Shown one piece after another: positions 40,578-57,128 of a stretch of DNA of 64,000 nt. The notes under the pieces were generated by a model, which was not told the origin of the DNA, ran no database searches, and saw only the letters and a list, made by a program, of their open reading frames with translations. How positions within the stretch are numbered: the first letter of the stretch is position 1; each line of letters begins with the position of its first letter. The stretch comes from Vampirovibrio chlorellavorus (GTDB taxonomy: Bacteria > Cyanobacteriota > Vampirovibrionia > Vampirovibrionales > Vampirovibrionaceae). The position numbers and the translations under genes were made by a program. The stretch covers positions 65,805 to 129,804 of the forward strand of contig CAIPMU010000003.1 in the NCBI GenBank assembly GCA_903866275.1, read 5' to 3'.

Positions 40578-41903
40578 ATGAAAGAAATTGCCGTTCTGGG
40601 TTTGGGCTATATTGGTCTGCCTACCGCTAGTATTCTGGCGACGCATGGCTTTATGGTGCATGGGGTCGATATTTCTCCCACGGTGGTGGAGATTATTAAT
40701 AAGGGAGGCATTCATATTGAAGAGCCCGGATTGAAAACGCTGGTTCAGGCTGCCGTCAATTCAGGAAATTTAAAAGCCTACACGCAGCCTCAAATGGCGG
40801 ATGTGTATATTATTGCCGTTCCCACACCCATCACCGAGGAAAAACATGCGGATTTGTCCTATGTGGAATCGGCGGCGCGTTCGATTTTACCATTGTTAAA
40901 GCCGGGGGATTTAGTCATTCTGGAATCAACTTCCCCGCCTGGTACCACGGTGGATTTCCTCTGCCCGATTCTGGCTGAATCCGGTCTGGAACTGGGTCGA
41001 GATTTGTTGGTGGCGCACTGTCCCGAGCGGGTATTGCCCGGCAAAATTATTAAAGAACTCATTCAGAATATTCGCATTATTGGGGGCATTCAGGAAGAGT
41101 CTGCCCGCAAGGCAAAAGAGATTTATGCGACTTTTGTGGAGGGGGAGATTCATCTCACTGACGCGACAACGGCCGAGATGGTCAAGATCATGGAGAACAC
41201 CTACCGGGATGTAAATATCGCGCTGGCCAACGAGTTGGCGCAAATTGCCCCGGCATTAAAAATCAACGCCTGGGAAGTGATCCGCTTTGCCAATTTGCAT
41301 CCTCGGGTGTCTATTCATCAGCCAGGGCCCGGTGTTGGCGGGCATTGTATCTCCGTCGATCCCTGGTTTGTGGTTGAGAAATTCCCCGATACGGCCCAGT
41401 TGATTCATCGTGCGCGTTGCATCAATGATTTTATGCCGCAATATACATATCAGCTGGTTTTAAATTTGTTGAAAGGCATTCAACACCCTAAAGTAACAGT
41501 GCTAGGATTAACCTATAAACCGGATGTGGATGATATTCGCGAGGCACCGGCGCTTAAAATTCTGGACTTGATGTCCCAGAATCCGGATCTGGAGGTGGCA
41601 GTCTACGATCCTCACGTCAAGCACTCTGACTGTGAGCTATCGGGCCTGGAGTCTGCCCTGCGTGGCTCCGATTGCGTGTTACTGACGGTCGATCACGCGG
41701 AATTTAAGTTTATTCATCCTCGGCAGGTGGCTAATTTAATGCGTACCCGGCAAGTGATTGACACGCGTAATGCCCTGAATGAATCCGAGTGGACTGCGGC
41801 GGGTTTTACCTATTGCCTGTTGGGACGAGAAGGGTCGGGTGAGCCGGTGCCAATGTTGTCCTCGTTGGCGTATGAGTCAGATTTTATGCTGATGCCGTTG
41901 TAG
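40578..41903 (+). CDS. wecC: UDP-N-acetyl-D-mannosamine dehydrogenase (WecC type)
   Basis: WecC oxidises UDP-ManNAc to UDP-ManNAcA in two NAD-linked steps. The 441-residue product has the N-terminal Rossmann fold VLGLGYIGLPTASILATHG, VYIIAVPTPITEE, STSPPGTTVDF, HCPERVLPGKIIKEL, AEMVKIMENTYRDVNIALANELAQI, PGPGVGGHCISVDPWFV with the catalytic Cys, and the C-terminal VLGLTYKPDVDDIREAPAL. The VLPGK and ENTYRDVNIALANE segments fit the ManNAc rather than the glucose branch. The epimerase WecB is not in the window. A terminator directly follows, so it is a separate unit from the main operon. Confidence 0.92.
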   Translation: MKEIAVLGLGYIGLPTASILATHGFMVHGVDISPTVVEIINKGGIHIEEPGLKTLVQAAVNSGNLKAYTQPQMADVYIIAVPTPITEEKHADLSYVESAARSILPLLKPGDLVILESTSPPGTTVDFLCPILAESGLELGRDLLVAHCPERVLPGKIIKELIQNIRIIGGIQEESARKAKEIYATFVEGEIHLTDATTAEMVKIMENTYRDVNIALANELAQIAPALKINAWEVIRFANLHPRVSIHQPGPGVGGHCISVDPWFVVEKFPDTAQLIHRARCINDFMPQYTYQLVLNLLKGIQHPKVTVLGLTYKPDVDDIREAPALKILDLMSQNPDLEVAVYDPHVKHSDCELSGLESALRGSDCVLLTVDHAEFKFIHPRQVANLMRTRQVIDTRNALNESEWTAAGFTYCLLGREGSGEPVPMLSSLAYESDFMLMPL

Positions 41904-42351: not shown

Positions 42352-43572
42352 ATGTATAAACGCATTTTAATTTCGATGGGTCTGGCGACTTCAATTTACT
42401 TGCTAACTCCCACATGGGCGGCTGAACAACGTGGGACGGCACCAGCATCGGCCAAATCCGCTGTTCAGTCTACTCAACTGCTTAGCCTGGGGCAGCCTGC
42501 GATTGAGCAAGTTGATGGGCCTGCATTAAACGCCAGAATTATGGCCAACTATACGGGCCGTAAATACCGGCTGGGGCCGAATGATGTGTTGTCCGTGGCG
42601 GTGTATGATTCGCCTGAATTTTCCCAGCAGGATTTACTGGTGCAACCGGATGGCAATATTACGCTGGCCCCGTTTGGTTCGGTTCCGGTGGCAGGTTTAA
42701 CCATCGAAGATTTGCAAACCGATTTGACCGAGCGGTTGAAATATTATTTGAAACAACCGCAAGTGACCGTCAAGATTGCGCACACCAAGCCATTTCAGGT
42801 GTATGTCACCGGGGCGGTGCTGCATCCGGGGGCTTACGAAATGGTTACGGACATGATGCGTATGCAGATGGTCAATAACGCCAATCAAGGCTTTCAGGGC
42901 TTGCTGGTGGAGCGCAAGTTGCCGCTGCTGACCAACGTGTTGGTGGGTGCCGGGGGGCTTCGCTACGATGCGGATATGGAGCATGTTAAAGTACATAACC
43001 GCTTTGATGGCTCCAGTTATGAAATTAACTTGCTGGATCTGTTGCAAGGCAATAACGCCACGCAGGATTTGTTCCTGATTGCCGGGGATTCCATCGAAGT
43101 GCCTAAATTGCCAACGGCGTATGCGGTGAGCGATGAGAAGTACAAAGCCATGCTGGGTTCCACGGTTTTTCAGAAGGAAATTCCGGTGCGGGTATTCGGA
43201 TATGTCAACAAACCCGGCCTGATTATGCTGGATGGGGCTCAGTCGGCTAATTTGAACTCGGCCATCAGTGAGGCGGGCGGTTATTTGTCCACGGAGGCCT
43301 CTTACGCCCCGACGCGTATTTACCTCAGTCGGGTGGATGGCAGTGGTCATATGACCAGCCGGGAAGTGGATCCGCGGCATGAAGATGTCGCGTTGCGGCC
43401 CAACGATGTGATTTACATTCCCAACAAAATCACGCCACGGGTGGGTCATGCCTTCGATTATCTGGCTCGGGTGGTGGTCCCCTTGGGCGCCATTGCCGCA
43501 TCTAGCAACAGCTGGGCGTTGCTGTTCAATCCTACCCGCTACACGGTGCAGTCCAGTCAGCCCCGCCCCTAG
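42352..43572 (+). CDS. Polysaccharide export outer-membrane protein (OPX, Wza-like)
   Basis: The 406-residue protein has a signal peptide (MYKRILISMGLATSIYLLTPTWAA, no lipobox Cys), a poly-export domain YRLGPNDVLSVAVYDSPEF...VQPDGNITLAPFGSVPVAGL (about 65-145), then two SLBB-type segments (FQVYVTGAVLHPGAYEM and VRVFGYVNKPGLIML). The C-terminus has a hydrophobic stretch that may cross the outer membrane. It exports capsule or exopolysaccharide across the outer membrane. A 22-bp-period repeat and a hairpin precede it. It is the first gene of a packed operon running to 55520. Wza itself is a lipoprotein; this one is not. Confidence 0.9.
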   Translation: MYKRILISMGLATSIYLLTPTWAAEQRGTAPASAKSAVQSTQLLSLGQPAIEQVDGPALNARIMANYTGRKYRLGPNDVLSVAVYDSPEFSQQDLLVQPDGNITLAPFGSVPVAGLTIEDLQTDLTERLKYYLKQPQVTVKIAHTKPFQVYVTGAVLHPGAYEMVTDMMRMQMVNNANQGFQGLLVERKLPLLTNVLVGAGGLRYDADMEHVKVHNRFDGSSYEINLLDLLQGNNATQDLFLIAGDSIEVPKLPTAYAVSDEKYKAMLGSTVFQKEIPVRVFGYVNKPGLIMLDGAQSANLNSAISEAGGYLSTEASYAPTRIYLSRVDGSGHMTSREVDPRHEDVALRPNDVIYIPNKITPRVGHAFDYLARVVVPLGAIAASSNSWALLFNPTRYTVQSSQPRP

Positions 43573-43631: not shown

Positions 43632-46574
43632 ATGAATATGGAAGAATTTCGAGCCAACCGGTTTATTCGTAGTTTTATCCGGGATAAATGGCTGATTGTG
43701 GCCTCAACCAGTGTGTTGATGCTGTTTGCTGTGATCTATGTGGCCTTTTTCTACAAGGCCCCCTGGCAGTCGGAAGCCAAGGTCTGGATCAAAGACACGG
43801 CCACCCGCAATTTTGTTTCGCAGGGTCAGGAAGAACCCGGTTATTTAAGCTCTTTGACGGCCTCCAGCAATCCCTCGATGGTGCAATCGGAAATTTTAAC
43901 CTCCAAGGAGATGGAAGGCTATCTGGCCGATTATATTCGCCAGACGCAGCCCCGGAAGAATTGGGGGCCAGTAACGCGGGAGGGCGAACCGGATACGCAC
44001 GATATTCTCAAGGTGAAAACGGAACCCAACACCGATATTCTGACTGTGAAACTCCGCTGGGAAAATGCCGAAATGAGCCGGGTTTTGCTCAGTGAAGCGC
44101 TGGCGAAGCTGGATCAAACCAACATTGCCATTAACCGGCAAATTTTCACCAAAAAGCGCGAGTACATTGATCAGCAACTGCGCGAGATTAATGACAAATT
44201 ACAGGTGATTCGCAATCGCATTAAAAACTTCCAGTCCGGACATCTGGCCATTGATATGGACACCCAGACCGCTGAACTGGTTCGCCTGAGAAGCCAGTTG
44301 GTGCAACAGCTGGAATCCGCAATGGCTTCTCGAAGTAATCTGGCGGGCAATGCACGCTCCTTGCAGAGTCAGTTGGCCATGAATCCTAGAGAGGCTTTAA
44401 TGGCGGTGGCTTTGGGTTCCGGGAATACCAACCTGGTGAAAATGCGGACGGATTTATCCACATTAAAACAGCAATATGCGCACGATAGCGTTAAGGAATC
44501 GGAAACCAATCCGCATCTGGTGGCGCTGAAGGATCAAATTACCCTGCTGGAATCGCAAATTCAGGAAGAATCCCAGCGGACAGCAGGACGACTGACCCGC
44601 AAGGCCCCCATGATTTTTGATACCGTTCGGGGGGAATTGGTGCAGGATATGGCTTCCTCGCAAGCGAAATCCCGGGCGATGGGTGCGGAAGTTTCCAGCT
44701 TGACGGCGGCCATTGCCCGAGTGGATCAGGGCTTGCGCGCGATTCCTCAAAATCGGTACACCCTGAACGGCCTGCAAGAGGAAGAACGCGCCCTGTCACA
44801 GGCTTACGATGAAATGCGCAAGCGTCAAATTGAAACCAGCATTAAAGAGGCGGAAACGCCCAGCAACGTGTTTGTGGTTGATCCGCCGGATTTGCCGAGG
44901 CGTGCCTCTTTCCCCACCGGGACGCACATGTTGGCACTGTCCATGATACTGGGGCTGGGGGCCAGTCTGGGGCTTTCTGTCCTCAAAACACTGGCTGAAG
45001 ACCTCTGCGAGGGGGCCGATGCGGTGGCTGAAGCCACGCATGCCAAATTATTGGGTGTCGTGCCCTGGGTGAACGATCCGGTTATTCCCCGCAGTCAGGA
45101 TGAATCCATGTTTGCCCACAACGATGTGGCCTGCAAACATATTATTTCGAATTTGCGATTGGAAGCGGCCCGACAAGCCGCGCAAGTGGTGGCATTTACC
45201 TCCACTTCACTGAATAAGCCAAAATCAGGTGGGGCTTATCATTTGGCGCAATGCATGGCGGCCGTGGGTCAAACCGTGGTCTTTATTGATGCCGATTGGC
45301 GGGTGTCGAACACAGCGGAGCGACCCGCCGACGGAATGGAACTGAGTGATCTGATCCTGGATGCGGATTTGAAATTGCGAAACGGTCAACCCGTCTTCCC
45401 GGAGGATGTTTTGGCGGGCTTGGTGCGCGATGAACACGGTATTTTTGTATCGATTAATCGCAATCCGATGACCAATGCCTTTGATTATTTTTCCAGTAAA
45501 GGCTTTCGGCACGTCATTAACGTTTTAAAAGAGCAGTTTGAGTGGGTGTTTGTAAATACCCCCTCTGCGGCCATTGCGCCTGAGTTTCTGCCCATTGCCA
45601 ATCTTTGCGATGGCGTGGTGCTGTTTGTGGATAAACGTGCCACTTATGGCACCCTGCGAACCATCGTCTCCCGAGTGGAGGAGGCTCAGGTTCCGATGCT
45701 GGGCACCATTGTGCGTGAAGAAAACGGGCGCATTGAATGGGAGTATGAAACGTACAGCAACTGGCGTGGGCCGGGCAGTGGAGGCGCTCTGGTGGGGGCG
45801 GGCAGTCGTCGTCCCGAGCGGAAGCGGGTTGAGTTCATGGGCGCTAAAATTGACGCCCTGACCATGCAGGAAACCCTGGATTATGTCTCCGAGCGAATTA
45901 AGAACCGCCAGCCCGTTCAGCATGTGGTGGTGAACGTGGCGAAACTGATGACCATGCGCCGCGATCGCCGACTGCGGGAGATGGTCAACAGCAGCGATCT
46001 CATCAACGCTGATGGCGCTGGCGTGGTGCTGGGGGCCCGGTTGCTCGGGGTCAATATCCCTGAGCGCGTGGCAGGCATTGATTTAATGCACCGTCTGGTG
46101 GAGTTGGCCAGTCGCTGTAATTACCGGATTTTCCTGCTGGGGGCTGAGGAAGATGTTGTGCGGGATGTGGTGGCCGCGTATAAAAATCAGTATCCCCATT
46201 TGCAAATTTGCGGCTACCAGAATGGTTTTTTCAAGCCGGAAGAAGAGATCACGGTGGCGCATAAAATTCGTCAGGCCCAGCCGGATATTCTCTTTGTGGC
46301 AATGAGTACGCCCAAGAAGGAGCGGTTTATCAATCAGTACAAAACATTGATGAATGTGCCGTTTGTGATGGGCGTCGGCGGCAGTTTTGACGTCGTGGCC
46401 GGGAAAGTGAAGCGGGCCCCTCTGTGGATGCAAAGTGCGGGTATGGAATGGTTCTACCGACTGGCCCAGGAACCGCGCCGCATGTGGAAACGCTATTTAA
46501 TGACGAATCTCGAATTTGGGTGGGCTCTGGCCAATCAGGCTGTCAGCATGAGGTTGCGTCCGGCCAATGGCTAA
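43632..46574 (+). CDS. Wzz-like / degenerate BY-kinase / WecG-type glycosyltransferase triple fusion
   Basis: The start ATG at 43632 gives 980 residues. Residues 10-455 form a Wzz chain-length (PCP) protein: membrane segments near 20-42 and 430-453 flank a long coiled coil. About 475-710 resembles a BY-kinase (CpsD/Wzc) domain: VVAFTST, VVFIDADWR (Walker A') and WVFVNTPSAAIAPEFL are present. But the P-loop reads NKPKSGGAYH instead of GEGKST, so ATP use is doubtful. About 735-970 is a GT26 (WecG/TagA) domain: KLMTMRRDRRLREM, NADGAGVVLGARLLG, RVAGIDLM, FVAMSTPKKERF, GVGGSFDVVAGKVKRAP. The glycosyltransferase Thr of WecG (V-T-L-N) is Val here. WecC upstream could supply UDP-ManNAcA for it. Confidence 0.9.
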   Translation: MNMEEFRANRFIRSFIRDKWLIVASTSVLMLFAVIYVAFFYKAPWQSEAKVWIKDTATRNFVSQGQEEPGYLSSLTASSNPSMVQSEILTSKEMEGYLADYIRQTQPRKNWGPVTREGEPDTHDILKVKTEPNTDILTVKLRWENAEMSRVLLSEALAKLDQTNIAINRQIFTKKREYIDQQLREINDKLQVIRNRIKNFQSGHLAIDMDTQTAELVRLRSQLVQQLESAMASRSNLAGNARSLQSQLAMNPREALMAVALGSGNTNLVKMRTDLSTLKQQYAHDSVKESETNPHLVALKDQITLLESQIQEESQRTAGRLTRKAPMIFDTVRGELVQDMASSQAKSRAMGAEVSSLTAAIARVDQGLRAIPQNRYTLNGLQEEERALSQAYDEMRKRQIETSIKEAETPSNVFVVDPPDLPRRASFPTGTHMLALSMILGLGASLGLSVLKTLAEDLCEGADAVAEATHAKLLGVVPWVNDPVIPRSQDESMFAHNDVACKHIISNLRLEAARQAAQVVAFTSTSLNKPKSGGAYHLAQCMAAVGQTVVFIDADWRVSNTAERPADGMELSDLILDADLKLRNGQPVFPEDVLAGLVRDEHGIFVSINRNPMTNAFDYFSSKGFRHVINVLKEQFEWVFVNTPSAAIAPEFLPIANLCDGVVLFVDKRATYGTLRTIVSRVEEAQVPMLGTIVREENGRIEWEYETYSNWRGPGSGGALVGAGSRRPERKRVEFMGAKIDALTMQETLDYVSERIKNRQPVQHVVVNVAKLMTMRRDRRLREMVNSSDLINADGAGVVLGARLLGVNIPERVAGIDLMHRLVELASRCNYRIFLLGAEEDVVRDVVAAYKNQYPHLQICGYQNGFFKPEEEITVAHKIRQAQPDILFVAMSTPKKERFINQYKTLMNVPFVMGVGGSFDVVAGKVKRAPLWMQSAGMEWFYRLAQEPRRMWKRYLMTNLEFGWALANQAVSMRLRPANG

Positions 46575-47988
46575 GCCTGAACGATTGACGAGCGCCTCGT
46601 GGGCCGAAGCCTCTCGGCTTAAACTTTGGCAATGGGGGGGGCTGTTTCTGGGCGTGGGAATTCTGTTGGGCTTGGCCCAATTTGTGATTCCCAGTTACTG
46701 GATTATGGCCTTGTTGATCAGTTTGGCGCTGTTGGTCTATTTGTCTTTACGGCCCCATCTGGTCTTTTATTTGACGATTTTTACCATTCCATTTACTGAC
46801 CGGGTGCGCGTGCTGCCCATTAGTTTTTCCTTGAACGAATTGGTGTTGTTGTATTGCGTGGTGCTGTGTCTGGTGCATATGCTACTGCGCAATCAGCGCG
46901 TCAATTTTAAAACCGGATTGGAACCCTGGTTAATTCTGCTAACGCTGGTGTATTTTCTGGCCGGTTTTTTCTCAGCCAGTGACACCGGGCTGTTGGGTTT
47001 CTCTAAGGTGTTTGAGGCTTTTATTTTCTATTACGTCACCATTTATTTTCTCAAAACCAAACAGGTGACCCGTGCGCAAGTCTTGCGCGTGCTCCTGTGG
47101 ACTGCCCTGTCTCAGGCTGCGTTGGGGATTTTTCAATCCGTGACCGGCATTGGTTCCGACTTTCAATCGAGCCGGGGTTATTTGGGCTATCTCGGGCTGG
47201 GGTCGAACATGGTGTGGCATGGCCGGGGTACGACTTGGCATTTCAACACCCTGGGTAATTATTTAGCGACCAATGTGGCGATGTTTTTGCCGTTGTATTT
47301 CTTTTGTTTCAAACAGAAGAAAAAGGCGCTCTGGATGGCCACAATCCTGATGCTGGGCATTGTTACCACATATTCCCGCGGCAGTTTGTTGGGTTTATCG
47401 GCTGCGGTGATCTTTTTTCTGGCGGTCAGTCAACCCACCGTGAAGCGGTCGCTGGTGTTCGTGCTGACCTTCGTGGGCATGGTCATCTGGCCCGCGGTGT
47501 CCTTTTTTGGCAATTCACCCTATGCGCAAACAGTCAGTTACGAGGAACGCTTAATTATCTGGCAGGTGCCGATGGCGGCCATTATGCGCAATACTAAAAC
47601 CCTGTGGCTGGGCTCGGGGATTAACTCCTATGCCGAGGTGGCCTGGCCTTATATTCCGGCCTGGGTACCCCCGGATCAGTTTCGAAACTGGTTTGCGCAC
47701 AACTTTTATCTGCTCACCGTAGAAGAGATGGGCCTGGTTGGCGCCTTCATACTCTTCAGTTTTTTAATGTTTCTCTGTGTGGACGGCTTGCGGAAATTCA
47801 GGCAGTGTCATGGCTTTCAGCGCATGTACGGGTTGTCGATCAGCACGGCCATGATTGCGATTTTTTTTGTAAGTATTTTCGATCACACGTTTGGTTCTCC
47901 TCACTTTAAAGTCTTTGTATTCCTGTTATTGGGGTTACTCTATGTCCAACGCGATACCTCTGGTAAAGCCCGTCAAAGGACGGCTTAA
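46567..47988 (+). CDS. O-antigen ligase/polymerase-like membrane protein (Wzy/WaaL type)
   Basis: The 473-residue product has about 11-12 hydrophobic segments and a Wzy_C/O-antigen ligase-like region: NTLGNYLATNVAMFLPLYF, TYSRGSLLGLSAAVIFFL, a large periplasmic loop with ERLIIWQVPMAAIMRNTKTLWLGSGINSYAE, and AHNFYLLTVEEMGLVGA. Together with the Wzz-like fusion it fits a Wzx/Wzy-dependent pathway, most likely as the polymerase. Ligase use cannot be excluded. It overlaps the triple-fusion gene by eight bases. Confidence 0.86.
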   Translation: MAKPERLTSASWAEASRLKLWQWGGLFLGVGILLGLAQFVIPSYWIMALLISLALLVYLSLRPHLVFYLTIFTIPFTDRVRVLPISFSLNELVLLYCVVLCLVHMLLRNQRVNFKTGLEPWLILLTLVYFLAGFFSASDTGLLGFSKVFEAFIFYYVTIYFLKTKQVTRAQVLRVLLWTALSQAALGIFQSVTGIGSDFQSSRGYLGYLGLGSNMVWHGRGTTWHFNTLGNYLATNVAMFLPLYFFCFKQKKKALWMATILMLGIVTTYSRGSLLGLSAAVIFFLAVSQPTVKRSLVFVLTFVGMVIWPAVSFFGNSPYAQTVSYEERLIIWQVPMAAIMRNTKTLWLGSGINSYAEVAWPYIPAWVPPDQFRNWFAHNFYLLTVEEMGLVGAFILFSFLMFLCVDGLRKFRQCHGFQRMYGLSISTAMIAIFFVSIFDHTFGSPHFKVFVFLLLGLLYVQRDTSGKARQRTA

Positions 47989-49270
47989 GCTTGCCCCACT
48001 GGTTAAAAACCTAAGCATTACATTCAGCGAAAATGTAATGACCAAAGGCTTGAGCTTTTTAACTATCCTGATGCTGACCCGGACGTTGGGTCCCGGTGAT
48101 TATGGGAAATATTCCTTTGTCTTTGTGACGGTGGCCATGTGCAGCGCCCTGTTTGACTTTGGCATGGAAAATACGGCGGTGCGTTTTGCGTCAAAAGATA
48201 AGGCATTAATCCAACCCATTTTTGGCTTGTATCTATTGGTGAAACTGGGAACGCTGGCGGGTCTGGTGCTCTTTTTTACGTTGGCGGGTCCCTGGTGTTT
48301 TGAACTCATGCACAAGGGGGAAATGAGTCAGTATTTACCCTACATTATTACGGGCCTTATTGGTGAATCTCTCTTTTTTGTGAATGATACCTATTTACAA
48401 GCCCGTCAGCGGTTTCAATTTCGGGCCGCTTTGAATATTGCCCGAGCCAGCGTGGTTTTGGTCTATGTGGCGGCTTTGCTGGGGGGGCATGGGTTGTCAT
48501 TGAACACGGTGTTTTTCATCTATCTGATTCCGCTGCTTTTTTCGGTGCTGTTTTTGGGAAAGTACGCGGGCTTTGTGCGCTCATTCCTCAGTAACGCCCT
48601 GAAGCCTCCTTTTTTACAAGAGTTAGGGCGTTACGAACGTTGGATGTTTGTTTACTCAACGGCTTACAATTTGCTGGGGCGTATGGATTTTTTCATGCTG
48701 GGTTTTTGGGTGCAGTTTCAGCAGTTGGGGATATTTAACGCAGCCTATCAACTGTGTTCCATTGTGTCGTTTTTGCCCATGTGTTTGGGGAAAGTCTTAT
48801 TGCCTGCCCTGTCTGAATTATCAGAATCTGCGGTGTTTGAGAAGACGAAAAAACTCATTCGCGTGACCGGGTTCATTTGTCTGGCGGCGACCCTGTTGAT
48901 TCCCATGACGGCTTGGGTGGTTCCTGTGTTGCTGGGTAGTGAGTATGTTTCTGCCATTCCAATATTGCAAATTTTGTTGCTGGCGTTCATTTTGGGCTTG
49001 CTGAGCATGCCCTATGAGCAGTCGCTTTATTCGCTGGGACGCCCCAAGGTGTTGAGTGTGGGGCGTTATCTCCAGTTGTTTCTGATTGTGGGCTTGAATC
49101 TGATTTTATTGCCCAATCTGTCGATGAGGCATCGCGTCTTTGCCGTTGCGTGGACGGGGCTTGCGGGTCGTTTGTTATACCTGTTTTATGCAAGGTATTT
49201 TTATTTGGCTTATGAAAAAAGTGTCATTCGGCAACTGAAAACGCCTCGGCTGATGGAGCATGTCGGATGA
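47942..49270 (+). CDS. Polysaccharide flippase (Wzx/RfbX type)
   Basis: The ATG at 47942 gives 442 residues and overlaps the preceding gene by 47 bases. Twelve or more hydrophobic segments follow an amphipathic N-terminus (LSITFSENVMTKGLSFLTILMLTRTLGPGDYGKYSFVFVT, in parts). The TRTLGPxDYGKYSF motif is typical of the MOP-superfamily PST flippases that move undecaprenyl-PP-linked repeat units across the inner membrane. Its stop overlaps the next gene's ATG by four bases. Confidence 0.9.
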   Translation: MSNAIPLVKPVKGRLKLAPLVKNLSITFSENVMTKGLSFLTILMLTRTLGPGDYGKYSFVFVTVAMCSALFDFGMENTAVRFASKDKALIQPIFGLYLLVKLGTLAGLVLFFTLAGPWCFELMHKGEMSQYLPYIITGLIGESLFFVNDTYLQARQRFQFRAALNIARASVVLVYVAALLGGHGLSLNTVFFIYLIPLLFSVLFLGKYAGFVRSFLSNALKPPFLQELGRYERWMFVYSTAYNLLGRMDFFMLGFWVQFQQLGIFNAAYQLCSIVSFLPMCLGKVLLPALSELSESAVFEKTKKLIRVTGFICLAATLLIPMTAWVVPVLLGSEYVSAIPILQILLLAFILGLLSMPYEQSLYSLGRPKVLSVGRYLQLFLIVGLNLILLPNLSMRHRVFAVAWTGLAGRLLYLFYARYFYLAYEKSVIRQLKTPRLMEHVG

Positions 49271-50466
49271 GCCCTGACGTTTTGCGCGTAATGCATTTGA
49301 TTTCCTCCCTGCAGGTGGGCGGTTCAGAGAAGCTGTTGGTCGATTTTCTGGCGGCTTGCCGGGATGATGATCGGGTTAATTTCACCGTGGTGGTGATGAA
49401 TCAGGCGGTGCACCCCGACATGCGGGAACGATTGGAGCGCCTGGGGGTGAATGTCTATTATCTGGATCGCCCGGAAGGGCATCAGCACCCCCAGTATGCG
49501 TGGCAGTTGTTTCAGATTATTCATCGTCATCGGGTGCAGGTCATCCACGCCCATAATACGGGGAGTAAATGGTGGGCTATGCTTTGTAAATTGTTCCTGC
49601 CTTCCCTGAAGCTGGTGTTTACGATCCACGAAACCCAGACCTTTCCTCGACTCTCCGGGTTACAGCGCTGGTTACATCGTCACTGGATTGATATGCATAT
49701 TGCCATTTCCAAAACCGTGGCAGGCTTATGTCAGCAACAAGCCATCTGGAATTTCCGGCAGATTTATAATGGGATTTCGTTGCAAGCCATGCGTCATCCG
49801 GATCGGGTGAGTCTGAAGGCGCGGTGTCACATCACCCCTTTTGCCGAGCGTTCGCTGCAGCTTTTGCATGTGGGGCGGATGGATTATTCGGTCAAGGGGC
49901 AGGATATTCTGGTGCGGGCGGTGTATTGTTGTCGGCAGATGGGGCTCAACGTTCGATGCACGTTGATGGGGGGTGTTTATCCTTACAATCAAAAACATTT
50001 TGACGAATTGAAGGCGTTGGTTAAAGCGCTCAACCTGGACGACCATATTGAGTTTCATCTGAACCAGATGGATGTGGCTGCCCAGATGGCGCAGGCCGAT
50101 GTGTTCGTGTTGCCCTCGCGTGCTGAAGGGCTGGGCTTGGTGGTGCTGGAGGCGATGGCCGCAGGCTTGCCGGCCATTGCCAGTGATACGGAAGGTCCGC
50201 GTGAACTGGTGCAGCACGGCGTCACTGGCTTATTGTTTGAAAATGGAGAGCCAGAACAATTGGCCGCACAAATTCGGGTGATTTATGAACATCCCGAACG
50301 GGCGGATGAGATGCGGAATGCCGCCAGTCGTTGGGTTTTGCCGTTTGATATAGCCCAGATGAAGCAGGAGTATTACACATTATATGAGTTCCTGATTGTT
50401 TCGCCTGCGTTGGCGGAAATCAAGCAGATAAACGTGGGGAGATTAACCAATGAAGCCCGTGTTTGA
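49267..50466 (+). CDS. Glycosyltransferase family 4
   Basis: This 399-residue GT-B protein begins MHLISSLQVGGSEKLLVDFLAA after a short leader (the family's Gly-rich acceptor-side loop). It has LLHVGRMDYSVKGQDILVRAV at the start of the donor half and ADVFVLPSRAEGLGLVVLEAMAAGLPAIASDTEGPRELV with the E-x(7)-E motif that binds the nucleotide sugar. It adds one sugar to the repeat unit on the cytoplasmic side. Sugar identity is not predictable. ATGA overlap with the flippase gene. Confidence 0.92.
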   Translation: MSPDVLRVMHLISSLQVGGSEKLLVDFLAACRDDDRVNFTVVVMNQAVHPDMRERLERLGVNVYYLDRPEGHQHPQYAWQLFQIIHRHRVQVIHAHNTGSKWWAMLCKLFLPSLKLVFTIHETQTFPRLSGLQRWLHRHWIDMHIAISKTVAGLCQQQAIWNFRQIYNGISLQAMRHPDRVSLKARCHITPFAERSLQLLHVGRMDYSVKGQDILVRAVYCCRQMGLNVRCTLMGGVYPYNQKHFDELKALVKALNLDDHIEFHLNQMDVAAQMAQADVFVLPSRAEGLGLVVLEAMAAGLPAIASDTEGPRELVQHGVTGLLFENGEPEQLAAQIRVIYEHPERADEMRNAASRWVLPFDIAQMKQEYYTLYEFLIVSPALAEIKQINVGRLTNEARV

Positions 50467-51790
50467 GCTGAAATGTTGGGTCAAAAAATTATATCGTCAG
50501 GGGGGGAAGTTTCGCGCTTATCTGGATGAGTTGGAGCATACCGAAACAATGGCGCTTTATGAATTGCAGCGCCTCCAGAATCGACGCTTGCGGCGCATGG
50601 TGGATCATTGTGTTGCCAATGTTCCCTATTACCGGGATTTATTCCATGCCCTGAAACTCAGGCCCGAGGACATTCAGACCCCCGATGACTTGCAACAATT
50701 GCCGCTTCTGGATAAGCAGACCGTCAATCAGAACTTTGAGCGGCTGATCGCCCGAAATCATCAGAACTGGTTGTGTCAGATCGCGAAAACCAGTGGCACC
50801 ACGGGGAGTCCCGCTAAATTTATTCGGGATTTCAATGCCATCAATTTTGAGAATGCCGCCATTTGGCGCCAATGGCGTAAAGGCGGTGATTTTGGAAAAA
50901 AACGTGTCACGTTGCGAGGCGGTATTATTGCGCCGGTTGCACAGACCGAACCGCCTTTCTGGCGCCATAATCCGGCCAACCGTGAGTTGCAGATGTCCAG
51001 CTTTCATTTGTCTATGAAAAATAGTCGCGCCTACGTGGATGAGATCTTGCGATTTCAGCCGAAGGTGCTTTACTGTTTGCCGTCTTTGGGTGCGTTGCTG
51101 GGACGGTTTTTTCGGCATCATGGGGTGTCTTATCAGTTCGATCGCATTTTCACCTCCTCAGAATCCTTAGAGCCAGATACTCTGGCATTTTTGGAAGAGA
51201 CCTTTCAAACCCGCGTGGTGGACTGGTATGGTCAGACCGAGCGTGTTGCAGCCATTGGTCAATGTCATCTGGGCCGCTATCATATTCAGGAAGATTACGC
51301 CATTGTGGAGTTGTGGCCCAGTAACGATGCGGATACTTACGAATTGGTGGGCACGCACCTGCATAATTTCGTGATGCCCTTGTTGCGTTACCGAACGCAT
51401 GATTTTGTGACGGTAGATCTATCCAGTTGTGCTTGTGGCTCAGTGTTTCGACCCGTCCGGGAAATAGTGGGCCGAAGCGGAAAAACGCCCATTATTACGC
51501 CGGAAGGCTGCCATATTACGATTACGGCTCATATCACTTGCGGTATCAATAACTTGCTCGAGACGCAATTTCAGCAGGAAAAGCCGGGTGAAGTCATTCT
51601 GAATGTCGTGACCAATGGCCAGTTTAGCGAATGGGATAAAGCGCAGCTGATACAAAATACGTTGCAATATACATCGCCCTTGATGAGAGTAGAAGTAAGA
51701 AAGGTCGATGAAATCCCACGGGGTCCCAATGGCAAGTTTATCAGCATTGTGAACTCCGCGGGCATGGAAAGGCAGGGTAGTGTCGTATGA
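50450..51790 (+). CDS. CapK/PaaK-like adenylate-forming protein, copy 1
   Basis: The 446-residue protein belongs to the phenylacetate-CoA ligase-like adenylate-forming group that occurs in capsule loci (CapK). It has the AMP-binding motif KTSGTTGSPAKFIRDFNAINF, FTSSESLEPDTLAFLEETF, VDWYGQTERVAAIGQC, LLRYRTHDFV and the C-terminal IPRGPNGKF with the late catalytic Lys. CapK-type genes are found with polysaccharide clusters, but the acyl or other acid they activate is usually unknown; a decorating group of the polymer is a fair guess. The start overlaps the GT4 gene by 17 bases, and copy 2 follows with an ATGA overlap. Confidence 0.88.
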   Translation: MKPVFELKCWVKKLYRQGGKFRAYLDELEHTETMALYELQRLQNRRLRRMVDHCVANVPYYRDLFHALKLRPEDIQTPDDLQQLPLLDKQTVNQNFERLIARNHQNWLCQIAKTSGTTGSPAKFIRDFNAINFENAAIWRQWRKGGDFGKKRVTLRGGIIAPVAQTEPPFWRHNPANRELQMSSFHLSMKNSRAYVDEILRFQPKVLYCLPSLGALLGRFFRHHGVSYQFDRIFTSSESLEPDTLAFLEETFQTRVVDWYGQTERVAAIGQCHLGRYHIQEDYAIVELWPSNDADTYELVGTHLHNFVMPLLRYRTHDFVTVDLSSCACGSVFRPVREIVGRSGKTPIITPEGCHITITAHITCGINNLLETQFQQEKPGEVILNVVTNGQFSEWDKAQLIQNTLQYTSPLMRVEVRKVDEIPRGPNGKFISIVNSAGMERQGSVV

Positions 51791-53127
51791 AGAATTTATT
51801 TGGACTGCAATGCTGGTTAAAAAAATTCTACCGTCGCGGCGTGCGCTTTCAGCAATATGCCCGTTTGTTGTCCACGACGTATGGTTATTCTGCCCAGGAA
51901 CTCAAGGTTTATCAGAATAGCCGCCTCACCAAAATGATTCGTCATTGTTATGACAATGTACCTTATTATCGTGAAATGTTTCATTCATTGGGTTTAAAGC
52001 CCCAGGGAATTCAGACGGCTGAGGATTTAAAACTGCTGCCGCTTCTGGATAAGCGAACGGTTCAGGCTGATCTTGAAAAATTTATTTCAAAAAAACACTA
52101 CAATGTTTTGTGTAGTGAAGGCAAAACCAGTGGCAGCACCGGAATGCCAGGTAAGTTTATTCGGGACTTTGATTCGATTAACTTTGAACATGCCTGTGTG
52201 TGGCGCTACTGGCAAAATGCGGGGGATCACGGACGTCGGCGCATCTCATTGCGGGGGGATATTATTGTGCCTTCCTCGCAAGGAGAGCCGCCATTCTGGC
52301 GTTATAATCCAGCCAATCAGGAGCTGCAAATGTCGAGCTATCATTTATCGCGACAAAATAGCATTCATTACATACAGAAAATTCTGGAATTTCAGCCCGA
52401 GGTCTTGTTTGCAGGTCCGTCCATGGCCTATGTACTGGCTAAATTCTTTAGCTTGCATCGAGTGTCCTATCAGTTGAAGGCGGTGTTTACTTCGTCTGAA
52501 TCTCTGGATCCGGAAGTGCGACACTTCATCGAAGATGTTTTTCAATGCAGAATTTTTGACTGGTATGGTCAGGCGGAACGGGTGGCGGCCATTGGTCAAT
52601 GCTCGGCAGGCCGCTATCATATTCAGGAAGATTACGCCATTGTTGAGCTGATGCCCGGCCCTGATGCGGGTAGCTTTGAGCTGGTAGGAACCCAGCTGCA
52701 TAACTATGCAATGCCGTTGCTGCGGTATCGAACACAGGATTCGGTTTATCTGGAATCGGCTGAGCAGGCTGAAATGTCGTGCGTTTGTGGCTGTTCGTTC
52801 CGCTCCGTGGATCGGATTCTTGGACGATCCTACGGGTATTTGCTCACGCCCGAGGGCTATCACATCGCCATTACAGCCCATATACCGATTGGGGTAGATA
52901 ACGTGATTGAGGCGCAATTTTATCAGGAGCGTCCCGGTGAAGTGATCCTGAAGGTCTTGGGCAACGGGCAATTTTGCGCCCTGGATCGGGAACGGCTCAT
53001 CCAGAATACCCGCAAGCACACGTCTCCCCGCATGAATGTGATTGTGGAAGAGGTGGACGAAATTCCACGGGGACCGAATGGGAAATTTATTAATATTATT
53101 AACAAGGTGCCAACGGCCCTCAATTAA
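51787..53127 (+). CDS. CapK/PaaK-like adenylate-forming protein, copy 2
   Basis: This 446-residue paralogue of the preceding protein has exactly the same length and the same motif order: KTSGSTGMPGKFIRDFDSINF, FTSSESLDPEVRHFIEDVF, FDWYGQAERVAAIGQC, LLRYRTQDSV and IPRGPNGKF. Both keep the acid-activation residues, so neither looks inactive. Differences cluster in the middle (for example residues around 190-260), where substrate specificity would lie. The two arose by tandem duplication. It is followed after 28 bases by another GT4 gene. Confidence 0.88.
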   Translation: MKNLFGLQCWLKKFYRRGVRFQQYARLLSTTYGYSAQELKVYQNSRLTKMIRHCYDNVPYYREMFHSLGLKPQGIQTAEDLKLLPLLDKRTVQADLEKFISKKHYNVLCSEGKTSGSTGMPGKFIRDFDSINFEHACVWRYWQNAGDHGRRRISLRGDIIVPSSQGEPPFWRYNPANQELQMSSYHLSRQNSIHYIQKILEFQPEVLFAGPSMAYVLAKFFSLHRVSYQLKAVFTSSESLDPEVRHFIEDVFQCRIFDWYGQAERVAAIGQCSAGRYHIQEDYAIVELMPGPDAGSFELVGTQLHNYAMPLLRYRTQDSVYLESAEQAEMSCVCGCSFRSVDRILGRSYGYLLTPEGYHIAITAHIPIGVDNVIEAQFYQERPGEVILKVLGNGQFCALDRERLIQNTRKHTSPRMNVIVEEVDEIPRGPNGKFINIINKVPTALN

Positions 53128-53155
53128 GTAGGGTTTGTTGGGAAGGGAGACTGCC

Positions 53156-54265
53156 ATGTCGCACAAAGCCCAGGTATTGATGGTGGGTCCGGAGATGACC
53201 GCCAAAGGCGGTGTTTCTTCCGTGCTGCGTTTATATCAGGAGGCCGGGCTGTTTGAACGGGTTCAGGTGATGGCTTCTTATCGGGATGGATCGGCGGTTC
53301 AAAAAGTCAGTTATTACCTTCGCTTTTTGGCAAAATTTGTGACTGTTTTAATGACTCAGCCTCAACTGCGGGTGGTGCATGTGCATATGGCCTCCTATGG
53401 CAGTTTTTTTCGAAAATCTTTGGTAATTTTGTTCGCGCGGGTCTGTGGTAAGGCAGTGATTATCCACATGCATGGCGCTGGTTTTATTCAGTTTTATCAA
53501 CGAATGCCCGCCGGGGGGCAGTGGTTCATTCGTTTCGTGCTGCGGGCTTCGACCGTTTTAATCGCCTTGTCGACGCAATGGCGAAATGACCTGTTTGCGC
53601 TTTGTCAGCATCCGGATATTCGGGTATTTTATAACCCAACGGTCTTAAAACTTCCCATGTTTGATACGAATAAAGATGACCATAAAATCAATGAATCCCG
53701 GCCACCCGTGAGGGGTGAGGATGGAGCTCCGGTGAGATTTTTATTTATGGGTCGATTGGGGCAGCGCAAGGGCGTGTACGACATTATTTCGGCGATGCGC
53801 CATTTGGGCGGTCACCCTATTCGGGTTGATTTGTATGGGGACGGTGAGGTGGCGCCGATTGAGCATGAAATCTTGACGGCAGGGGTTGGCGATCAAGTGA
53901 CCGTGCATGGTTGGGTGGATGGGTCGCATAAAGACACTATATTCCGGCAGGCCGATGCCTTGCTGTTGCCGTCGTATCATGAAGGCTTGCCCATTTCAGT
54001 GCTGGAAGCGATGGCGTATGGCTTGCCGGTGGTCGCGACGAATGTTGGCGGTATCCCGGAAGCGGTTGAAGATGGTTTGAATGGGTATTTAATTCAGCCT
54101 GGAGCCTGTGAAGCCTTGCGTTTACGAATGGCCCAGCTGGCCGGTTCTGCCGAATTACGGCAGCAAATGGGAAAAGCGGGGTATCAATTGGCTGCCATAA
54201 AGTTTGATCTATCCGTCATTGTGAAGCAACTGGAGACCCTGTATGCGGAAGTTATTGGAAGATAA
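53156..54265 (+). CDS. Glycosyltransferase family 4
   Basis: The ATG at 53156 has a GGGAG site. The 369-residue GT-B protein has VLMVGPEMTAKGGVSSVLRLYQEA at the start, VVHVHMASYGSFFRKS, IHMHGAGF, RFLFMGRLGQRKGVYDIISAM in the donor half, and ADALLLPSYHEGLPISVLEAMAYGLPVVATNVGGIPEAV with E-x(7)-E. It adds another sugar to the repeat. Close spacing makes it part of the polysaccharide operon; its 3' end overlaps the next gene by 23 bases. Confidence 0.92.
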   Translation: MSHKAQVLMVGPEMTAKGGVSSVLRLYQEAGLFERVQVMASYRDGSAVQKVSYYLRFLAKFVTVLMTQPQLRVVHVHMASYGSFFRKSLVILFARVCGKAVIIHMHGAGFIQFYQRMPAGGQWFIRFVLRASTVLIALSTQWRNDLFALCQHPDIRVFYNPTVLKLPMFDTNKDDHKINESRPPVRGEDGAPVRFLFMGRLGQRKGVYDIISAMRHLGGHPIRVDLYGDGEVAPIEHEILTAGVGDQVTVHGWVDGSHKDTIFRQADALLLPSYHEGLPISVLEAMAYGLPVVATNVGGIPEAVEDGLNGYLIQPGACEALRLRMAQLAGSAELRQQMGKAGYQLAAIKFDLSVIVKQLETLYAEVIGR

Positions 54266-55520
54266 CGGCTCTAATCTCGGGGTTGAGCCCTTGAATGAGC
54301 AATGGCCTGAACCGATGGAGGAGCCCGCAATTCTGCCCTCCTGCTTGCATCAGGGTACCCTAATGCAACCTTTGCAAAAACTGATCCGGTATGTGCGGGA
54401 TCGAAATTATGAAGGCATTGATCTGTTTGATGGCCTGAACAGCTTACTATTCAAGTTCACCCCGCTTTATCAGAGCCGCTTGTTTCGGTTGGCGTTGATC
54501 CAATTCTGTAAGCTCTCGCCAATAAATTTTCGTCCGCTATTGCTGGTGAAGGGCGGCTTTAACCCCAAAGCGGGCGCCTTGTTTTTAATGGGGAACCTGA
54601 ATTTATTTCGATCAACCGGTCAGGAAGTTTATGCCAATGATGCATACATCCTGTTTCAGAGACTCAAGCATATTGGGATTCCACGAAAAGTGGGGCTGGG
54701 CTGGGGGTATAATTTTGATTGGCAGGCCCGCGCGTTTTTTGTGCCTCAGGGAACACCCAATATGGTGACTTCCGTGTATGTGGGACGCGCACTGCTAGAC
54801 TATCACCACCAGTTTAACGATGCTGAAGCGCTGCAAATGGCCATCCAGATTTCAGCGTTTATACTGGATGAAATGATCCAGTATGAAGATGTGACGACAC
54901 TCTGCTTTAACTATATTCCGGGACAGAATGCGGAAGTGCATAATGCCAACCTGCTGGCTGCATCCTATCTGGCACAGGTTTTACCGTATGTCTCCCCGGA
55001 GCGACAGGCTGAAATGAGACAAAAGGTACTCAAGTCTACCCGGTTCTCGGTGGAAGATATTAAGGTAGACGGCGCCTGGCCTTATGGCACCAAGCCCTTT
55101 CATCGCTGGGTGGATAATTTTCATACAGGTTTTAACATTGAGAGCCTGGTGACGATTTCCGTATTGCTGGAAACGGATGAGTTTATCCCGATTTTAATGA
55201 AGGTACTGGAGTATTATTTAATGCATCTTTTTACGGAAGAAGGGATTCCGAAATATTATAATCAATCGGTATATCCCATTGATGTTCATGTTTTGGCCGA
55301 AGCGATTGTGGTGTTTCAACTGCTCCGCAACTGTAATATGGCGTGGTTCCCGGTGCGGATTTTAAAGCTGGAACGCGCCATGCTGGACTTGGTGGATGTC
55401 TTTCAGGATCCCGAAAAAGGATACTTCTATTACCAGAAAACGTATCGAAGCTGGAATAAAATTTCGTATATGCGTTGGGGGCAGGCCTGGATGTTTTACG
55501 CTTTGTCGAGCTGCTTGTAA
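54243..55520 (+). CDS. Alpha-helical protein of unknown function, possibly six-hairpin type
   Basis: The 425-residue protein is helical throughout, with Trp/Tyr/His-rich segments such as NFHTGFNIESLVTISVLLET, VDGAWPYGTKPFHRWVDN, NAEVHNANLLAASYLAQVL and YYNQSVYPIDVHVLAEAIV. These resemble alpha/alpha-barrel (six-hairpin) glycosidase or epimerase folds found in polysaccharide loci, but no active site is certain. It has no signal peptide, so it would act in the cytoplasm. The first 40 residues before MQPLQ are not conserved-looking, and a start at 54363 is possible. It is the last gene of the operon. Confidence 0.72.
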   Translation: MRKLLEDNGSNLGVEPLNEQWPEPMEEPAILPSCLHQGTLMQPLQKLIRYVRDRNYEGIDLFDGLNSLLFKFTPLYQSRLFRLALIQFCKLSPINFRPLLLVKGGFNPKAGALFLMGNLNLFRSTGQEVYANDAYILFQRLKHIGIPRKVGLGWGYNFDWQARAFFVPQGTPNMVTSVYVGRALLDYHHQFNDAEALQMAIQISAFILDEMIQYEDVTTLCFNYIPGQNAEVHNANLLAASYLAQVLPYVSPERQAEMRQKVLKSTRFSVEDIKVDGAWPYGTKPFHRWVDNFHTGFNIESLVTISVLLETDEFIPILMKVLEYYLMHLFTEEGIPKYYNQSVYPIDVHVLAEAIVVFQLLRNCNMAWFPVRILKLERAMLDLVDVFQDPEKGYFYYQKTYRSWNKISYMRWGQAWMFYALSSCL

Positions 55521-55657: not shown

Positions 55658-56413
55658 TTAGGCTGTGTCCATGCCGCCCAATACGACGGGAATGGTTTTT
55701 AAAAGTAATTTGAGGTCCAGCATAATATTCCATTCTCGAATGTATCGAAAGTCCATGCTGACTACGGTGTCAAACTCCTGAATCCGGGAACGTCCGCTCA
55801 CTTGCCAAATGCCGGTTAGGCCTGGCAGGGTATTGAACCGTAAGTAATGCCAGCGCTCGTAATGCTTTAACTCGCGATCAATGGGCGGTCTTGGGCCCAC
55901 AAGGCTCATATCTCCTTTAAGCACGTTGAGAAGCTGGGGCAGTTCATCGATGCTATATTTGCGAATAAACCGGCCCACTTTGGTAACGCGTGGGTCGTTA
56001 AACAGTTTGAACATCCCTTTGTTGGTCTGATTCTGATCCAGAAGTTGTTCCAGCAAGTCATCCGCATTGGGGTGCATGCTCCGGAATTTATACATTTTAA
56101 ACAGTTTTCCCTTGAGTCCAACCCGTTTTTGCATGTAGAGCACGGGACCTTTACTCTCCAGGTGAATAGCCAGCGCCACCAGTAAGAGCAATGGCGAAAG
56201 TCCCAAAATGCCCAGAGCGCTTGCGGTAATGTCTAAGGTTCGTTTCAGAAACCACTGAAAGGGTTTTTGGTCGCAGAGCGCCAGGCCATGCTCATGGGCC
56301 AGTTCAGGGCTGAATGTGAAGGATTGTGCAGAGTGTAAGGGAAATGGCTCGGTGCGGGATGTTAAAATATCCAGTTCGGACAATCTTGTTTTTTCCAGGC
56401 TTTGTGTTGACAC
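55658..56413 (-). CDS. Polyprenyl-phosphate sugar-1-phosphate transferase (WcaJ/PglC type)
   Basis: It primes repeat-unit synthesis by putting a sugar-1-phosphate onto undecaprenyl phosphate. The GTG at 56413 has a perfect AAGGAG site; the TTG frame further up (56431) was rejected. The 251-residue product has one membrane hairpin (LDITASALGILGLSPLLLLVALAI), then YMQKRVGLKGKLFKMYKFRSMHPNAD, RVTKVGRFIRKYSIDELPQLLNVLKGDMSLVGPRPPI and LPGLTGIWQVSGRS. The short form lacks the extra N-terminal membrane helices of WcaJ. It is convergent with the operon. Confidence 0.93.
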   Translation of the reverse strand: MSTQSLEKTRLSELDILTSRTEPFPLHSAQSFTFSPELAHEHGLALCDQKPFQWFLKRTLDITASALGILGLSPLLLLVALAIHLESKGPVLYMQKRVGLKGKLFKMYKFRSMHPNADDLLEQLLDQNQTNKGMFKLFNDPRVTKVGRFIRKYSIDELPQLLNVLKGDMSLVGPRPPIDRELKHYERWHYLRFNTLPGLTGIWQVSGRSRIQEFDTVVSMDFRYIREWNIMLDLKLLLKTIPVVLGGMDTA

Positions 56414-57128
56414 GTTGCGTTCTCCTTTCAACCCTTCAGTGAATGTTTTTGTCGGTGGAATGCAGTGATTTCAGGGGAAGACGATGCGGTGATCGTGTGG
56501 GCATACAGGTTTATCCTCTGAAAATTACTGCCAATTCCCGTGGAATGCCAAGTGTTGAGAACCTGGTTAGGGTGGGTTCTGGATTGTTTCAGGCCAATTC
56601 TGTTCTGGCATAAAGTTGAAGTCTTTATGCAGACTATGTAAAACAGGGCGTGCAAAGAATCACCTGTTCGATTATTTTGTACCGACCAGTTGGGTGACTT
56701 GTTATACATTGGCCTTCAAAACCAGTGTTTGGTGAAGGAAATGTCATTGGGTTAGAATTAATTGAGCGTTTTAGTGAGGGGTATTAGCAGCATTTCAAGC
56801 TTTTGGTCTGGGTTGCGGTTGTGAGTGTTATGTTAAAAGATATGAATCTGAGCCGTAACTGCTTTAGTGAAGCGGTCTGGTTGCAATTGGTGGTGCGTGA
56901 AGGCTTTATGAAGGCGAATTGTGGTTGAGTAGGGCTATCTTTTTACTGTATGGCTGTGCTTGCTAAATTGAACAAAGATTCTTATGATTGTGGCTGGTAA
57001 GTAGTTACCCGGATGGGCACCCCTGTCTGGGGAATTGATTCATGGTTGCTTGAGTAGTTTGTGTTAGTTGTGCCAAAAAGGCAAAGACAGTCTTTGTCAT
57101 TCATGGTCTAGAGATAGGGATTTTAACG
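56414..57128. other. Intergenic region, about 715 bases
   Basis: This gap separates the minus-strand priming transferase from the plus-strand gene at 57129 and holds no supported gene. It is unusually long for this window. Only a possible promoter near 56960 (listed separately) was seen; short frames here have no ribosome site. Confidence 0.4.
56960..56988 (+). promoter_or_regulatory. Candidate promoter for the gene at 57129
   Basis: TTGCTA (56960-56965) and TATGAT (56983-56988) are separated by 17 bases. The -35 box is only a partial match. Distance to the ATG would be about 140 bases. Confidence 0.3.

Follow-up and report, generated by a model that had tools for sequence, protein, structure and literature searches.

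Fusion of a Wzz-type co-polymerase, a BY-pseudokinase and a VpsK-like GT26 glycosyltransferase domain in a single Vampirovibrio protein

How the synthesis of repeat units in the cytoplasm is coordinated with their polymerisation outside is an open question in Wzx/Wzy pathways, whose proteins are assumed to associate as separate proteins, through contacts that are difficult to demonstrate. In a 64,000-nucleotide stretch of Vampirovibrio chlorellavorus DNA (the window), one plus-strand gene (43632..46574) encodes a chain-length co-polymerase (PCP), a BY-kinase fold and a GT26 glycosyltransferase in one protein. That a co-polymerase and a repeat-unit transferase are naturally fused is evidence from evolution that they operate next to each other, and the fusion offers a single protein in which coupling can be tested. 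The individual parts are known already; their combination was found neither in our surveys nor in the open literature searched. The surface polymer concerned is that of an epibiotic predator of algae, V. chlorellavorus, a relative of the cyanobacteria, being a predator of Chlorella (PMC4451040).

A sequence-only reading of the window had proposed a triple fusion in one 980-residue chain, and this was borne out by an uninterrupted frame and by Pfam, NCBIfam and Foldseek matches to all three parts. The ORF begins with ATG, encodes 980 amino acids without an internal stop, and specifies, in order, a Wzz-type PCP with two transmembrane helices, a BY-kinase fold, a Gly-rich linker and a full GT26 domain. 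Pfam searches detected the Wzz (PF02706) and Glyco_tran_WecG (PF03808) domains, the kinase region being recognised instead by weak matches to NCBIfam BY-kinase models. In phmmer searches of the PDB the protein matched TagA (1e-43), and the middle domain was matched, over residues 362-698, by solved Wzc (3e-6) and also by VpsO. The cytoplasmic half was modelled with AlphaFold at moderate confidence (mean pLDDT 56, four close sequences); the model, whose GT26 part is poor and whose domain packing is uninterpretable, retrieved TagA (E 4e-10) as well as Wzc, VpsO and CapAB (E 2e-7 to 1e-5) in Foldseek. A frameshift or assembly error behind the fusion is excluded because the same fused frame occurs in five separate assemblies, among them that of the isolate V. 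chlorellavorus NCIMB 11383; in one assembly the copy runs off the contig at its 5' end.

The N-terminal part has the features of a PCP-2a protein. Pfam places the Wzz domain at residues 12-94 (E 7e-8, above the cut-off; 43665..43913, plus strand), and hydropathy indicates one transmembrane helix at residues 19-45 (43686..43766, plus strand) and a second at residues 432-454, into which a GNVR region runs (44772..44993, plus strand); the GNVR match itself, at residues 381-453, has an E-value of 4e-5, just under the Pfam cut-off. Because there are two such helices, the pseudokinase and GT26 parts are predicted to be cytoplasmic. The protein therefore joins a Wzz domain with two transmembrane helices to a cytoplasmic BY-kinase fold, the latter recognised by sequence and by Foldseek with the moderate-confidence model. 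E. coli Wzc and Vibrio VpsO share this layout, including the GNVR region, and the operon context of OPX, Wzy and Wzx genes, but the fusion differs from them in its degenerate kinase motifs and in carrying a linker and a GT26 domain where their Tyr-rich tail stands. In a tree with long outgroup branches the PCP part clusters with the order's own PCPs and, on this grouping, is native to the order. A different Wzz-type co-polymerase, conserved in Vampirovibrio, lacks a kinase domain; in its place stand about 400 cytoplasmic residues that are rich in Pro and apparently disordered (L031:9181-11826, L032:5048-7867, L033:6130-8826 and L039:4536-7289).

The middle domain (residues about 470-700; 45039..45731, plus strand) was delimited by NCBIfam, sequence matches to the PDB, motifs and Foldseek. 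It has no Pfam kinase match and only weak NCBIfam ones, to TIGR01007 at residues 617-698 (E 7.6e-8) and to TIGR03018 at residues 504-687. The degenerate P-loop pointed out in the sequence-only reading, NKPKSGG (residues 528-534; 45213..45233, plus strand), is degenerate in all five orthologues, the other four reading DKPKSGG, EKPQAGG, EKPLVGG and EKPLVGG: the Gly preceding the P-loop Lys is Pro in 5/5 proteins, and the Lys and Ser of GK[ST] persist in two, the other three having Gln-Ala or Leu-Val in their place, so that none has the Walker A motif of a catalytic BY-kinase. Walker A' does remain, as had been claimed (FIDAD, residues 551-555; 45282..45296, plus strand), and is retained in four of the five orthologues, the window protein included; what the claim lacked is that Walker B (FVNTP, residues 640-644; 45549..45563, plus strand) has also changed, its Asp being Asn at residue 642 in the window protein only and Asp in the other four. 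A Tyr-rich C-terminal tail is absent, its place being taken by the Gly-rich linker, which contains one or two Tyr and leads into the GT26 domain. By motifs and Foldseek the domain is thus a BY-pseudokinase, a kinase fold devoid of catalytic motifs.

The residues that survive (Walker A' and the Walker B Asp in 4/5 proteins each, the P-loop Lys in 2/5) would suit a middle domain that is still an active, nucleotide-using regulator exerting allosteric control over the GT26 domain. We consider this improbable in view of the invariant Pro in the P-loop, the loss of Lys and Ser/Thr in three proteins, the Asn in Walker B of the window protein and the missing Tyr tail. The same motif loss also marks the order's other PCPs with a kinase domain: every one that we inspected has lost its P-loop, and the canonical BY-kinase model TIGR01007 scores above its cut-off in no Vampirovibrio genome. 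Degeneracy of the kinase is therefore a property of the lineage and not of the fusion, and kinase function appears to have been lost widely in this lineage. The degenerate P-loop that had been singled out as an oddity is real but not special: it is common to the kinase-domain PCPs inspected from the order, and pseudokinase partners of PCPs have been published. Stand-alone BY-kinase-like proteins that keep a GKS P-loop numbered only two, in genomes G010 and G016 (L047:6671-7465 and L080:3329-4111), whose PCP-fused kinase domains have lost the P-loop; at L047 a GT26 gene lies close to the stand-alone gene, on the opposite strand.

The BY-pseudokinases EcpK and HfsB have been proposed to serve as phosphorylation-independent scaffolds for their PCPs (PMC12004946). 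Like the Vampirovibrio domain, the pseudokinases of the Myxococcus EcpK/EpsV and Caulobacter HfsB/HfsA pairs are kinase folds without catalytic motifs or Tyr tail and are associated with a PCP from a Wzx/Wzy pathway (PMC12004946). They are separate proteins, whereas the Vampirovibrio pseudokinase is fused to its PCP and carries a GT26 domain, and Walker A', kept in the window protein, is not kept in EcpK. With the Vampirovibrio protein, the group of phosphorylation-independent PCPs gains a fused member.

Does the third part look like a working transferase? Alignment with TagA and subgroup motifs place the GT26 domain at residues 731-980 (45822..46571, plus strand). Glyco_tran_WecG (PF03808) is matched at residues 788-955 over its full length (model 1-168/168, E 1.4e-63), and in NCBIfam the GT26 reach is residues about 725-965, with 178 bits for TIGR00696 (cut-off 69) and 144-148 bits for the WecG equivalog model NF002980, short of its cut-off of 323. 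With TagA/TarA and WecG the domain shares the catalytic Asp, Asn and Arg, the C-terminal Arg cluster and, as far as the moderate-confidence model goes, the TagA fold; TagA itself is about 34-36% identical in a structural alignment and has no fusion partner. N768, D794, R812 and E897 correspond to TagA N39, D65, R83 and E168, and R943, R950 and R954 to R214, R221 and R224, so that both the catalytic Asp and the C-terminal Arg expected of a GT26 enzyme are present in the alignment, and two TagA positions are changed, to V766 at T37 and to K896 at Q167. Asp65 is the general base of TagA, whose activity of 1.5 uM/min falls to 0.41 in Thr37Ala and to 0.052 in Asp65Ala, and which needs membrane association for activity (PMC6493773). 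Since the Thr37Ala enzyme retains that much, replacement of this Thr by itself would not imply an inactive enzyme.

The Val at the Thr37 position had been taken for the replacement of a WecG Thr and for an oddity. The Val is real, but the residue that it replaces is TagA Thr37; in the ManNAcA transferase WecG of E. coli the corresponding residue is Ala, and Gln is kept at the Gln167 position. Nor is it peculiar to the fusion: free-standing GT26 proteins of Vibrio, Pseudoalteromonas, Burkholderia and Paraburkholderia (the last from plasmid loci) have both the Val and the Lys at 51-52% identity, and the Lys also occurs in free-standing GT26 proteins of Streptomyces, Lactiplantibacillus and Sinorhizobium. 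The former, which we call VpsK-like from the gene order of a Pseudoalteromonas Vps-type cluster and not from comparison with a characterised VpsK, have in common with the fusion (QHVVVNVAKL and SPKKE) the motifs VNVAKL and PKKE/PRKE and come from similar clusters, but are proteins of about 245-257 amino acids in their own right. Judged by these alignments, Val is the signature of a multi-phylum VpsK-like GT26 subgroup and not a lone defect.

Trees from three samplings placed the fusion GT26 inside the VpsK-like subgroup or its wider group (support 100/97, 94/90 and 93/86) and apart from every other GT26 gene that the order has, with identities of about 36% or less to these. Derivation from the order's own GT26 genes is rejected on the strength of the trees and of these identities, set against the 51-52% within the subgroup. 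A more precise donor lineage is unsupported: with changes in sampling, support for a sister relationship to a proteobacterial group was 98/94, then 82/88, and finally the grouping broke up; one member of the subgroup was seen in another cyanobacterial lineage (G095). The five Vampirovibrio genomes carry several other GT26 genes without a PCP fusion, and no separate copy of the VpsK-like subgroup was found in them. The two halves thus differ in history, since one belongs with VpsK-like transferases and the other with the order's own PCPs, and the GT26 domain would most simply be an acquired VpsK-like transferase joined to a native PCP-pseudokinase.

The gene is the second of a compact plus-strand set separated by short overlaps or gaps: an OPX (Wza-like) export protein (42352..43572; Pfam, NCBIfam), the fusion, a member of the Wzy-type polymerase/ligase family whose first 8 bases are shared with the end of the fusion gene (46567..47988; Pfam), a Wzx-type flippase (47891..49270; Pfam), a GT4 glycosyltransferase (49267..50466; Pfam), two tandem PaaK-like adenylate-forming enzymes (50450..53127, as 50450-51790 and 51787-53127; Pfam, NCBIfam), a second GT4 glycosyltransferase identified by domain search (53135..54265) and a 425-amino-acid protein with no Pfam or NCBIfam match (54243..55520). 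Upstream lies a nucleotide-sugar dehydrogenase whose best NCBIfam match is the UDP-ManNAc dehydrogenase WecC (40578..41903, plus strand; 449.6 bits, cut-off 459), and convergently downstream a priming phosphoglycosyltransferase (Bac_transf by domain search; 55658..56431, minus strand). The ORFs match in size and order in V. chlorellavorus and in two further Vampirovibrio genomes; the block from OPX to GT4 keeps its gene order in V. chlorellavorus and a second species, and in a third species synteny starts at the fusion. In one otherwise syntenic species Wzx is seemingly absent between Wzy and GT4, by ORF sizes and overlaps (L026:4089-4252). An ORF of similar size to that of the 425-residue protein stands at its position in other genomes of the genus. 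Downstream of the cluster, on the minus strand, is a 964-residue ORF without a Pfam match (58276-61170), and L116 has a 958-residue ORF at a similar place.

The clusters of the GT26 relatives bear on the sugar that the domain might transfer. Around the Pseudoalteromonas relative is a Vps-type cluster that has separate genes for wecC, a PaaK-like protein, GT4, a priming transferase, OPX and a canonical tyrosine autokinase; the Streptomyces relative adjoins wecC with wecB nearby; and that of the other cyanobacterial lineage directly follows a priming transferase. Presence of wecB/wecC and/or a priming transferase in these clusters supports a role early in repeat-unit assembly, with a uronic acid derived from ManNAc as the donated sugar, and a WecC-like gene and a priming transferase occupy the same cluster as the fusion, as they do near the free-standing relatives, which favours addition of ManNAcA to an Und-PP-sugar. 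Homologues of wecB are present in Vampirovibrio genomes, none within the window. UDP-ManNAcA is the most likely donor on this gene content, though the assignment is weak because WecG, itself a ManNAcA transferase, keeps Gln where the fusion has Lys. The tandem PaaK/CapK-like pair in the exopolysaccharide operon has a PaaK-like counterpart in the Pseudoalteromonas cluster (L086), and its occurrence in both suggests acyl or amide decoration of the polymer.

The fusion is found in frame in 5/5 Vampirovibrio genomes examined (58-64% identity), in 0/13 other genomes of the order and nowhere in the relatives set, in keeping with the earlier remark that such an architecture would be unusual. Nor did it prove common elsewhere: outside the genus no PCP-GT26 fusion was seen among the best matches listed from a 386-genome sample of the phylum, where the long GT26 frames checked were GT4-GT26, pyruvyl transferase-GT26 or the ORF of a 387-amino-acid GT26 protein; none occurred in 72,556 plasmid records (280 matched, none covering 80% of the query), nothing was found in viral contigs, and a contig scan with the fusion family's own motifs returned Vampirovibrio only. 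As far as the phylum sample, plasmids and viral contigs extend, the fusion is clade-restricted. Searches of the open-access literature yielded no report of a PCP fused to a glycosyltransferase domain. Computed domain by domain, dN/dS values for the PCP, pseudokinase and GT26 parts lie at 0.05-0.16, with synonymous sites near saturation for the most distant pair, which indicates purifying selection. GT4-GT26 proteins of about 630 amino acids were seen in another family of the phylum (L044:1016-2908, L045:2267-4168), and a 601-amino-acid polysaccharide pyruvyl transferase-GT26 protein in a member of the same class (L111:3930-5735).

What, then, might the fusion accomplish? On balance we favour a phosphorylation-independent PCP-2a scaffold bearing a VpsK-like transferase for an early repeat-unit sugar, tied in this way to chain building. 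The Wzz part and the two transmembrane helices would form a PCP oligomer working with Wzy and the OPX protein, and the pseudokinase would act as a cytoplasmic scaffold without phosphorylation, by analogy with the proposals for EcpK and HfsB. From its Gly-rich linker the GT26 domain would hang under the membrane beside Wzx/Wzy, use a UDP-sugar, most likely UDP-ManNAcA, and attach an early sugar of the repeat unit to the Und-PP-sugar that the nearby priming transferase produces; the fusion itself would supply the membrane association that TagA-type enzymes need. Several transferase copies, up to eight if the oligomer resembles that of Wzc, would then sit beside the flippase/polymerase complex, and covalent fusion would couple repeat-unit supply to polymerisation. 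The changes at TagA Thr37 and Gln167 count against this proposal, though they are uniform in the closest relatives, and so do the variable linker described below and the presence in the same genomes of several GT26 genes without a PCP. That chain-length control is physically coupled to sugar addition, as the sequence-only reading had supposed, can soundly be inferred from the covalent joining of the two; the oligomeric state, the transferase activity and its donor, and the working of the coupling we infer from the comparisons above. In Staphylococcus aureus, CapAB stimulates CapM about 4-fold (PMC6441080), so that there, too, a PCP-kinase complex influences a transferase from the same pathway, but by phosphorylation between separate proteins and on the priming enzyme, whereas Vampirovibrio has a covalent tether and no kinase. 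One extension of the proposal, which we regard as doubtful, is that the PCP ring controls the tethered GT26 domains: its oligomeric state would decide whether they are paired and inactive or active as membrane-bound monomers, so that chain extension in the periplasm would set the supply of repeat units in the cytoplasm.

A simpler account would have each half act like its free-standing relatives, the fusion being one of convenience that fixes only stoichiometry, co-expression and membrane attachment of GT26, without coupling. We hold this to be possible, though rather unlikely. A membrane-protein partner could provide the membrane association that enzymes such as TagA require; GT26 is evidently a readily fused domain, since it is also joined to GT4 and to pyruvyl transferase in the phylum; and the linker is flexible. 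Retention of the fusion in all five genomes, with no separate GT26 of the subgroup in the genus, argues the other way, as conservation and not as proof of coupling. The linker (residues 701-730; 45732..45821, plus strand), Gly-rich and without a Tyr cluster on inspection, is more variable than the neighbouring parts in two of four species pairs compared, as would be expected if the halves need only tethering and no geometric coupling. Within it, codon 721 of the window gene is a GTG with a GGAGG ahead of it, a possible internal translation start, through which (or through proteolysis) the halves might separate in the cell and the fusion be only genetic; we think this highly improbable, because the candidate start is not conserved, one species having GTT, and Gly codons of a linker readily give rise to GGAGG.
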